Positions 50,233 through 52,540 of a stretch of 64,000 nt of DNA are shown here, piece by piece. The stretch comes from Cryomorphaceae bacterium 1068. Its GTDB lineage: Bacteria > Bacteroidota > Bacteroidia > Flavobacteriales_D > Cryomorphaceae. A model generated the notes under the pieces. The model was given only the letters and a program-made list of their open reading frames with translations, ran no database searches and had not been told where the DNA came from. Positions within the stretch are counted from its first letter, which is position 1, and the number at the start of each line of letters is the position of its first letter. The DNA lies in NCBI GenBank assembly GCA_027214385.1, contig JAPVXR010000002.1, positions 186,001 to 250,000 of the forward strand, given 5' to 3'. Both the position numbers and the translations under genes were made by a program.

Positions 50233-50928
50233 ATGAAGTTTGGAGTCATCATCTTCCCTGGGTCTAATTGCGACCACGATTTGATTTATGTTCTTAGAGA
50301 CATACTTGGTCATGAAGTAGTAGAGCTTTGGCATAAAGACCGCGATCTAAAGGGGGTTGATTTCGTTATGGTTCCAGGCGGTTTTTCTTATGGAGACTAC
50401 TTGCGTTCAGGTGCTATTGCAAGGTTTTCCCCAGTTATGGAAAGTGTGATTGAGCACTGCAATAACGGTGGTTACGCCATGGGTATTTGCAATGGGTTTC
50501 AAATTTTGTGTGAGGCCGGCTTATTGCCAGGAACCTTACTGCACAATACAGATCACAAGTTTATTTGCAAGAATCTCTTCATCAAACCGGCTACTAGTAG
50601 CACGATTGTGACTTCAGGATTAAATTCAGATGAGGTTTTAAAAATTCCTATTGCGCATGGAGAAGGAAGGTATTACGCACCTGATGAGGTTTTAAAAAAG
50701 CTGAATGAAAATCAGCAGGTCATCTTCCGCTATTGCGATAAGGATGGTCATTTTAATAGCAAGTCCAATCCAAATGGTTCGCTTGAGAATATTGCAGGTG
50801 TAGCCAATGAGAACAAGAACGTTTTCGGTATGATGCCTCACCCCGAAAGAGCTGCAGATGAGTTACTTGGGAATGAAGACGGGCGATTGATTTTTGAATC
50901 CATCTTGAACTCAGTTATCCCCGCCTAA
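50233..50928 (+). CDS. purQ: Phosphoribosylformylglycinamidine synthase glutaminase subunit PurQ
   Basis: A 231-residue class I glutamine amidotransferase. The nucleophile Cys is in AMGICNGFQILCEAGLLPG, and the catalytic His/Glu in MMPHPERAADELLG. It supplies ammonia to PurL in purine synthesis, so the enzyme is of the split (PurS/L/Q) type; purS and purL are not in this window. Downstream lies a 337-base stretch with a structured RNA candidate and a small ORF with a strong Shine-Dalgarno. Confidence 0.95.
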   Translation: MKFGVIIFPGSNCDHDLIYVLRDILGHEVVELWHKDRDLKGVDFVMVPGGFSYGDYLRSGAIARFSPVMESVIEHCNNGGYAMGICNGFQILCEAGLLPGTLLHNTDHKFICKNLFIKPATSSTIVTSGLNSDEVLKIPIAHGEGRYYAPDEVLKKLNENQQVIFRYCDKDGHFNSKSNPNGSLENIAGVANENKNVFGMMPHPERAADELLGNEDGRLIFESILNSVIPA

Positions 50929-50936
50929 ACTTTTTC

Positions 50937-51078
50937 GACACTACTTCTGTTAATAAACCTGGAAATTTTGATTTCAATTATCAAAATTTTCTTTGTTACT
51001 TGAACTCAAATCCAAGAAAAGCTTGGTGATTTGGGAATCGAAATCATAAGATAATTGAGGACGATCCCAAGTAGTGTT
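50937..51078 (+). ncRNA. Candidate structured RNA element (multi-stem junction) after purQ
   Basis: Inverted repeats are nested in one 140-base block. Closing stem: ACACTACTT (50938-50946) with AAGTAGTGT (51069-51077), 9 bp perfect. Inside it: AAATTTTGAT (50963-50972) with ATCAAAATTT (50980-50989), 10 bp perfect; CAAATC+CAAG (51007-51016) with CTTG+GATTTG (51022-51033) with a two-base bulge; and GGGAATCG (51033-51040) with CGATCCC (51062-51068) with one bulged A. Together they can fold as a four-way junction. No ORF covers the block. The first stem, AT-only and followed by T-rich sequence, might instead be the purQ terminator. Confidence 0.5.
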
Positions 51079-51088
51079 AAACTAAACA

Positions 51089-51098
51089 AAAGGAGGTG
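51089..51098 (+). promoter_or_regulatory. Perfect extended Shine-Dalgarno sequence (AAAGGAGGTG)
   Basis: AAAGGAGGTG is the full 10-base complement of the conserved 16S rRNA 3' tail CACCTCCTTT. Its GGAGG core ends 7 bases before the ATG at 51104, the ideal spacing. I noticed no comparable ribosome binding site elsewhere in the window. ACCTCC at 51149-51154 can pair with GGAGGT (51092-51097) and could mask it. Confidence 0.7.
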
Positions 51099-51103
51099 TT
51101 CAG

Positions 51104-51169
51104 ATGTCTGACTATTCGAAACCGGAAGCAGGAATTTGTTTCACAGAGACCTCCAATTTTTGGGGGTAG
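51104..51169 (+). CDS. 21-residue small ORF behind a perfect Shine-Dalgarno
   Basis: The ORF reads MSDYSKPEAG then ICFTETSNFWG and a TAG stop. It contains one Cys, is slightly acidic and has an aromatic Phe-Trp-Gly end; no signal peptide or TM helix, and I recognise no family. Its start is set by AAAGGAGGTG 5 bases upstream. The ORF's own 3' part holds ACCTCC, able to pair with the Shine-Dalgarno and close a hairpin around the coding region. Downstream are a 7-bp stem (AGCTTCT 51168-51174 / AGAAGCT 51180-51186) and a terminator (51233-51264). It may be a small protein, a peptide precursor or a regulatory leader peptide; peptide synthesis is unproved. Confidence 0.5.
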   Translation: MSDYSKPEAGICFTETSNFWG

Positions 51170-51232
51170 CTTCTGAGAAAGAAGCTCCTACGGGATCTGA
51201 GTAAAATTACTGCGGATCGGTACGAAAATATA

Positions 51233-51270
51233 AAAGAGGCTGTCTCGCAAGAGTCAGCCTCTTTCTCATT
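51233..51270. terminator. Bidirectional terminator between the small ORF region and the TPR gene
   Basis: AAAGAGGCTG (51233-51242) pairs perfectly with CAGCCTCTTT (51255-51264), inner TCTC/GAG(T) pairs extend it, and T-rich tracts flank both sides. It ends the reverse-strand TPR gene (stop at 51266) and any forward transcript from the 50.9-51.2 kb region. Confidence 0.82.
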
Positions 51271-52540
51271 TTAAACCTCGACAGAAATAAGGAAGTTTCT
51301 CTTGTGCTTTATCGTACCCCATTTTTGCACTTATTTCTAAATCTTCACAGCCTGCTTGATCTTTGTAAGTCAAAAGCTTGGTAATGCCTCTATTGTGGTA
51401 AGCTTCTGCATATTCAGGATCGAGTTGAATAGCCTGATCGTAATCTTCAAGTGCCGAGATGTATTTGCCGTAAAAGGCCTTCACGTTGCCTCTCATATTA
51501 TAAACCTCGGGGTCTTTGGGGCTCGACTCTACAGCGCGGTCAAAGTCGGGTAAACTTTCCGCATAACTCCCCAGCATGCTTTTGGAAAAACCACGATTGA
51601 AAAGAGCATCCGTGAAATCGCCTTCAATCGCAATGGCTTTTGAGTAATCATCAATAGCGTCTTCGATACGCCCCATTTTCTTGCTGGTAATGGCACGATT
51701 GAAGTATGCATTTGGAAAGTCCTGATTCAAAGCCAATGCAATGTTCAAGTCGCTGTTTGCCTCTTCAATTTGACCTAATTTCTTTTTGGCTACACTTCTG
51801 TTGTAATAACCGATGGCGAACGTGGGCTCCAAATCAATGGCCTTGCTAAAAGCGGCTATAGCTCTGTCAATTTCGTCATACTTCAGATGGATTAAACCCT
51901 TAATATCATAAACCAAAGGAGATCGTGGAGCCAGTTTTTTCGCTTCCTCCACATCTGCTTCAGCGGAAAGTCTATCACCCACCCGCAAGTAAGTGATGGC
52001 ACGTTTCAGGTATGCAAGCGTGTCTTGTGGATTTAGTTCAATGATGAATGTGAAGTCTTCGATGGCCCTATCGTAGTCGCCACCCTCGAGCCCTGCCAAT
52101 GCGCGTGAGTCAAGCAGATAGTCGTCATACGGACTTAACTCCAAAGCTTTGTCTAAATCACCGATGGCCTCTTTGTAGTCGCTTTGTAAGAGCCTCAATC
52201 TGGCGCGCTTGTCGTAATAAACATCGCTGTACGGATTGATGTCGATAGCCTTGTTGTAGTCTTCCAGCGACTCTTGATAACGCCCCATTTGCTGAAGCAT
52301 AAGTGCACGTTTCATATAGGCCTCCGCATAATTTGGGTCGACTGTTATCGCATTTGTGTATTCTTGATAAGCATTGTTGAAGTTTCCGCCTCTTTTGGCC
52401 ATTTCAGCTTTTTGCATGTATTGGAAGGCTTCTTTCCTATTTTGTGTGTAAATGTTTTGAGCGCTTACTGCATTTGTAAAACCAGTAAAAACAAGCATTA
52501 CAACTATCCATCGCGCGATTTTTGACTTCAGCTTTCTCAT
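51266..52540 (-). CDS. Exported TPR-repeat protein
   Basis: A 424-residue protein with a signal peptide or anchor (IARWIVVMLVFTGFTNAVSAQ) and about eleven tetratricopeptide repeats in tandem, each close to YNRSVAKKKLGQIEEANSDL-type 34-residue units (for example AYMKRALMLQQMGRYQESLEDY). TPR arrays mediate protein-protein contact; location is the periplasm. The C-terminus after the last repeat has two Cys (CEDLEISAKMGYDKAQEKLPYFC). Partner unknown. Divergent from udk. Confidence 0.9.
   Translation of the reverse strand: MRKLKSKIARWIVVMLVFTGFTNAVSAQNIYTQNRKEAFQYMQKAEMAKRGGNFNNAYQEYTNAITVDPNYAEAYMKRALMLQQMGRYQESLEDYNKAIDINPYSDVYYDKRARLRLLQSDYKEAIGDLDKALELSPYDDYLLDSRALAGLEGGDYDRAIEDFTFIIELNPQDTLAYLKRAITYLRVGDRLSAEADVEEAKKLAPRSPLVYDIKGLIHLKYDEIDRAIAAFSKAIDLEPTFAIGYYNRSVAKKKLGQIEEANSDLNIALALNQDFPNAYFNRAITSKKMGRIEDAIDDYSKAIAIEGDFTDALFNRGFSKSMLGSYAESLPDFDRAVESSPKDPEVYNMRGNVKAFYGKYISALEDYDQAIQLDPEYAEAYHNRGITKLLTYKDQAGCEDLEISAKMGYDKAQEKLPYFCRGLK

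Follow-up and report, generated by a model that had tools for sequence, protein, structure and literature searches.

A structured RNA conserved in Cryomorphaceae that combines an extended Shine-Dalgarno sequence with a short open reading frame

The region behind purQ of Cryomorphaceae bacterium 1068 carries a member of a well-supported, previously unlisted RNA family, which combines a conserved structure with an extended Shine-Dalgarno (SD) sequence fitting the 16S rRNA tail, a short open reading frame (ORF), and a stand-alone genomic setting. It was analyzed within a stretch of 64,000 nucleotides, here called the window. Transcription and translation of the RNA are suggested by a box that is similar to flavobacterial -7 elements, a terminator-like hairpin, and a modest coding signal. 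Tentatively, with a probability of about 0.42, we read the element as a stand-alone RNA gene with a length of about 260 nt. Its product would be a small mRNA, possibly with a dual function, that serves mainly ribosomes in which the anti-SD sequence is exposed.

Architecture and boundaries of the RNA

A preliminary description of the block at 50937-51078 had proposed a new structured RNA, drawn as a four-way junction, from inverted repeats that are indeed present exactly where it placed them in the window. In the source genome (G000), these are the arms of a 9-bp closing stem, ACACTACTT (50938-50946) and AAGTAGTGT (51069-51077), and three inner hairpins at 50963-50989, 51007-51033, and 51033-51068. 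The block folds at -38.5 kcal/mol (z -4.5), and none of 200 dinucleotide shuffles was this low; for 50929-51270, the z score is -6.5 (0/100 shuffles this low). Because of conservation, the boundaries of the candidate RNA were shifted from 50937-51078 to 51004-51265, and the hairpins 51007-51033 and 51033-51068 correspond to P1 and P2 of the conserved RNA (Table 1).

The four-way junction had to be given up. Its closing stem is private to G000, where a stem of this length arose in 2 of 300 shuffles, while the best perfect match in the corresponding stretches of the other seven family genomes measures 5 to 7 bp and is equaled by 27 to 264 of 300 shuffles; moreover, the left arm lies upstream of the conserved promoter-like box. 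The hairpin at 50963-50989, which is A/T-rich, perfect, and located 35 nt 3' of the purQ stop codon, is recognizable by eye in the alignments of G000 and its congener G001 only and could be a local end of the purQ transcript.

Table 1. Features of the proposed RNA in the window
Feature	Position	Strand	Description
Promoter-like box GTTACTTG	50995..51002	+	GTTA(C/T)TTG in 8/8 family genomes; GTTACTTT in G402
Proposed RNA (P1 region through terminator-like hairpin)	51004..51265	+	About 260 nt; putative ends; fold z -6.0 (0/200 shuffles this low); model R1
P1 hairpin	51012..51026	+	5 pairs, 100% paired
P2 hairpin	51029..51072	+	9 pairs, all 9 with both-side changes (8-sequence alignment)
Extended SD	51088..51101	+	Uninterrupted 14-bp pairing to the 16S tail GGAACACCUCCUUUUU, -23.1 kcal/mol
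Short ORF	51104..51169	+	21 codons plus TAG: MSDYSKPEAGICFTETSNFWG
P3 hairpin, end of ORF	51149..51167	+	ACCTCC with GGGGGT, 6 pairs
P4 hairpin, directly after P3	51168..51186	+	Present in 8/8 minimum-energy folds
Terminator-like hairpin	51233..51264	+	10-pair helix in folds; missed by a consensus terminator scan

The promoter-like box resembles the flavobacterial -7 elements TAnnTTTG and TAnnTTGY given in the available text of PMC9723704 and is, by this likeness, a putative promoter element.

Covariation and comparison with known families

The structure was evaluated on an alignment of the eight family sequences (A4), which was built with MAFFT and without structural information. Since the tested structure was taken from the consensus fold of the same alignment, the covariation test favors it. 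P1, P2, the P2 tip, and P3 together had 92.9% paired cells versus 76.4% in the shuffles and a covariation score of 0.533 versus 0.202, and none of 500 shuffles reached either value. Changes on both sides occurred in 12 of the 23 pairs (reached by 2/500 shuffles), 26 further pair types were counted (13/500), and slid versions of the structure scored at most 0.12. The strongest structural evidence is the presence of both-side changes in every pair of P2. In P1, two pairs are changed on both sides among eight sequences and three among nine, and the outer pair of P3 shows such changes in 5/8. The tip of P2 (TCATAAGATAATTGA at 51044-51058) has the family form TCATAAnnTnnTTGA and reads CCATAA...TTGG in G002. 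With the distant copy from G402 added, 93.4% of the cells of P1 and P2 were paired and both-side changes affected 12 of 17 pairs (0/500 shuffles), in a nine-sequence alignment that was fitted to the covariance model. P4 lies outside the covariation scoring; it forms with differing letters when the 3' parts of the eight sequences are folded to minimum energy. When all helices with four or more pairs were scanned for further helices or a pseudoknot, none beyond P1, P2, and P3 covaried well, and the other helices listed contain no more than one both-side-changed pair each.

In agreement with the earlier statement that no Rfam-type family was recognizable, Rfam 15 at curated thresholds returned only a tRNA for the whole window, and nothing came near the threshold for the G402 copy. 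The best subthreshold match was BTnc231 (RF04180) at 51132-51264, with 24.2 bits versus a threshold of 80.4 (E 0.0062). 6S RNA was considered and rejected: neither RF00013 nor RF01685 matched in G000 at E <= 1, with the RF01685 control being weak (0/14 control genomes at the cutoff), and whereas 6S RNA is one long rod with a central bubble, the conserved pairs here form the separate hairpins P1, P2, and P3. Literature searches on small RNAs of Cryomorphaceae, Bacteroidetes, and Flavobacteria, on SD sequences with small ORFs, and on the anti-SD and bS21 revealed no description of the RNA in titles and the starts of abstracts, with supplements and most subscription journals being outside their scope. 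Overall, the preliminary description was borne out in part: the new structured RNA stands, based on covariation, presence in 8/8 family genomes, and the lack of an Rfam match, the junction does not, and the link to purines is one of position.

Distribution and genomic setting

Using blastn against 60 related genomes, the region was recovered from G000, G001, G002, and G004, half of the eight family genomes; at E <= 0.01, 12/60 genomes were matched, and the eight non-family ones among them contributed pieces of 23 to 44 bases (E 1.1e-5 to 0.008). All eight family genomes carry the block AAGGAGGTGTn(0-5)ATGTCTGA; of the 291 other genomes searched in the order, one has it too but lacks the remainder of the RNA, and this match was attributed to chance. 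In 84,980 species, a stricter version of the block matched seven stretches, all from records with Flavobacteriales, Bacteroidia, Cryomorphaceae, or Cryomorpha ignava in the title. The covariance check that the preliminary description had suggested turned out in favor of the RNA, as P1, P2, and P3 covary in the eight-genome alignment and the model R1, built from the eight family sequences, recovers the RNA in all eight Cryomorphaceae genomes with E <= 2.4e-35. Among 391 non-family genomes of the order, R1 had 13 matches (E 0.0017 to 0.096), each of which was read and rejected for lack of the SD-ORF architecture. Across 395 genomes of the class, the single convincing outsider was G402 from another Bacteroidia family (E 2e-4, 31 bits), with about 0.08 such matches expected by chance; the matches in G040 and G577 were read and rejected. 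Since the searches of the order and the class used strict filters, absence of the RNA elsewhere is weak evidence. The nine-sequence model R2, which includes G402, had one match (E 0.036) on 0.4 Mb of G025 (about one-tenth of the genome) and, on 1.74 Mb of G402, found the known copy that is part of the model and two matches with E 0.17 and 0.68. A pattern scan of viral contigs returned 24 stretches, all of which were judged to be chance on reading; the G402 RNA had no plasmid or phage match, and the RNA of the window had no plasmid match.

The copy in G402 has the box GTTACTTT, P1, P2 with the tip TCATAAGGTACTTGA, AAGAAAGGAGGCGGTGTAATG, and an ORF of 23 codons that ends in a hairpin of other sequence, followed by a terminator-like hairpin; box, ORF-end hairpin, and terminator are outside the scoring of R1. 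It is located between genes read as an aldehyde dehydrogenase (convergent) and phoH (divergent). In the family, purQ is found upstream of the RNA in 8/8 genomes; the purQ gene of the metagenome-assembled G004 is split over two frames (L005, 1698-2227, - strand), probably by an assembly error. The next large ORF is convergent, i.e., on the other strand, in all six family genomes that cover this side (G003 and G006 left out).

The extended Shine-Dalgarno sequence

The most informative part of the preliminary description is its ORF with a strong SD sequence. The SD is real and conserved, but the ORF, which had been taken for the gene that follows, lies inside the RNA. Pairing with the 16S tail amounts to -18.0 to -23.1 kcal/mol over 11 to 14 consecutive pairs in 8/8 family genomes, with -23.0 kcal/mol in G001 and -18.0 to -19.5 kcal/mol in the six genomes other than G000 and G001. 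All eight values are below the limit of about -13 kcal/mol for an extended SD, as calculated with the family tail GGAACACCTCCTTTTT, which was read in three of the eight genomes (G001, G002, and G005, not G000) and applied to all of them. A pattern for the usual 16S end GGNTGGATCACCTCC found nothing in the eight family genomes, and a second pattern found the end in three. The 16S rRNA ends in GGAACACCTCCTTT and not in the usual GGATCACCTCCTTT in three family genomes and G402 (L068, L069, L070, and L169).

With respect to the background, the ORFs called mechanically in the window with a minimum length of 150 codons (n = 53) have a median SD energy of -3.9 kcal/mol and a best value of -12.0 kcal/mol. 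The motif itself is no commoner in G000 than expected from a reversed control (8 versus 7 matches of AAAGGAGGTN{2,8}ATG); the other matches head frames of 2 to 46 codons and once of 229 codons, with an ATG that in the latter case seems to lie inside a pyruvate dehydrogenase gene. Across the 299 genomes scanned in the order, AAAGGAGGTGTTCN{0,9}ATG occurred at 14 places in 13 genomes, and two of these are the RNA described here (G000 and G001). None of the other 12 heads rpsU or a similar short ORF, two of them (L072 and L077) head long frames and are probably internal ATGs, and the reversed control gave at least three among the matches listed. In G402, the SD AGAAAGGAGG pairs with -17.2 kcal/mol to the genome's own tail (...CCUCCUUUCU; 16S tail GGAACACCTCCTTTCT) and with -14.7 kcal/mol to the family tail, and the better match to its own tail fits extended pairing. 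This energy is no outlier, since the best of 1473 ORFs in 2.1 Mb reaches -17.1 kcal/mol, with 25 bases considered for the ORFs and 35 for the RNA, and ORFs at -13 kcal/mol or below are about equally common in the mock window (10 versus 6).

In the available text of PMC9976891, the anti-SD is reported to be hidden in ribosomes of Bacteroidia, extended SDs to be preferred in the absence of bS21, and rpsU to be typically the one gene of a Flavobacteriales genome with such an SD, with published values of -14 to -21 kcal/mol. The rpsU SD of the seven family genomes in which the gene was found (not in G007), always elsewhere than the RNA, pairs with -2.4 to -11.1 kcal/mol only. In the genus of the source genome, rpsU is without a recognizable SD, with family-tail pairing of -2.4 kcal/mol in G000 (L066) and -3.3 kcal/mol in G001 (L065), whereas an extended SD has been published for many Flavobacteriales. 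A survey found rpsU in 45/45 genomes and provided loci for the best 30 of 45, six of them family. Of the 24 non-family genes, calculated with the best of three tails and not with their own, 3 reach -13 kcal/mol, namely L094 (G012), L097 (G045), and L102 (G017), with -14.4 to -20.7 kcal/mol; a strong rpsU SD is absent from most of the families sampled. A weak rpsU SD is therefore widespread outside the family and has no particular connection with the RNA, and the idea that the extended SD was moved from rpsU to the RNA within the family is weakened. A general switch in which the CCTCC of P3 holds the SD was not adopted, as the two pair with a probability of 0.97 in G001, 0.34 in G000, and no more than 0.17 in each of the remaining genomes of the family; in G402, the ORF-end hairpin lacks CCTCC.

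The short ORF and alternative readings

The ORF is open in the same frame over 21 or 22 codons in 8/8 family genomes and ends in TAG, TGA, or TAA, which would suit a microprotein gene, in which the peptide of 21 to 22 amino acids acts and the hairpins merely regulate or stabilize its mRNA. Among the five ORFs with 22 codons, pN/pS is 0.50 for the reading frame itself, compared with 1.29 and 1.26 for the two alternative frames; since shuffling of the columns produced the in-frame value in 83 of 2000 cases, the coding signal is only modest. Over all eight ORFs, pN/pS is 0.54, with low values at both ends (0.33 in codons 1 to 7 and 0.36 in codons 17 to 23), which overlap the conserved start block and P3, whereas the middle codons 8 to 16 reach 0.81; for comparison, the value for purQ is 0.19 over seven genomes (G004, with its broken purQ, left out). 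Furthermore, the G402 peptide is unlike those of the family beyond the initial MS, and four peptides had no match among the Pfam and NCBIfam models. Taken together, we regard a gene whose function lies in the peptide as unlikely.

A trans-acting base-pairing small RNA with an incidental ORF, whose P2 tip or SD stretch pairs with targets, appears quite improbable. The tip is kept in 8/8 family genomes and in G402, and conserved structured small RNAs do exist in Flavobacterium, e.g., Rfp18, which are typically without coding potential as far as the available text of PMC9723704 goes. With these, the element shares, compared by description only, the stand-alone structured intergenic layout in the same order. 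However, the frame is open in all eight genomes with a coding signal, and the most conserved stretch comprises the SD and the ATG.

Its constant position after purQ in the family would fit a cis-regulatory leader or riboswitch, e.g., one sensing purines, for a neighboring gene, but this is very improbable, since the six covered genomes and G402 have their next large ORF on the opposite strand, a terminator-like hairpin follows, and the G402 copy is not near purQ. Since that copy lies between other genes, the link to purines is positional only, as already cautioned in the preliminary description. Its own alternative, that nothing but the purQ terminator and a 3' untranslated region with chance repeats is present, has hardly any probability left: the hairpin at 50963-50989 could end the purQ transcript and the closing stem is unconserved, but compensatory changes refute it for 51004-51265, a homologue is found away from purQ, and a terminator scan, which is not exhaustive and missed 51233-51264 too, made no + strand call in 50850-51350.

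Proposed mechanism and implications

The most economical mechanism is that of a small mRNA for ribosomes with an exposed anti-SD. The 5' part of the RNA would fold into P1 and P2, the middle would present the extended SD and the ORF of 21 to 22 codons ending in a hairpin, and the 3' part would be structured as well. Because the anti-SD of Bacteroidia ribosomes is normally concealed in a pocket formed by bS21, bS18, and bS6, mainly 30S subunits with an exposed 16S tail, e.g., bS21-deficient ones, may bind and translate the RNA, which might thereby act as a sensor, reporter, or sink of this ribosome state. P2 with its conserved tip is predicted to be a likely binding site for a partner. We infer both the preference for anti-SD-exposed ribosomes and a downstream effect. 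It is doubtful, but conceivable, that a dedicated RNA sensor or sink captures bS21-deficient 30S subunits via its 11- to 14-bp SD where the SD of rpsU is weak or absent, so that the state of the ribosome pool would be read by a separate structured RNA and not by rpsU.

Structured RNAs with a short ORF are known as dual-function small RNAs, e.g., SgrS and RNAIII, to which the element is likened by description on account of its conserved ORF; in contrast to these, it has an extended SD. It also resembles the rpsU mRNA of Flavobacteriales, which carries an extended SD of the same strength class in bacteria that hide their anti-SD. Unlike the latter, the RNA is without bS21 coding and encodes a peptide of 21 to 22 amino acids, has a conserved fold on its 5' side and hairpins on its 3' side, and is separate from rpsU, whose SD is weak in the same genomes.

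SD-dependent control of translation in Flavobacteriales has been concluded to be limited to the autoregulation of rpsU, according to the available text of PMC9976891. If our reading is true, translation by bS21-deficient ribosomes would be directly testable in cultured Cryomorpha ignava and with reporters in Flavobacterium johnsoniae, and ribosomes with an exposed anti-SD would have a further client in this RNA, one of a type that may escape scans restricted to annotated genes.
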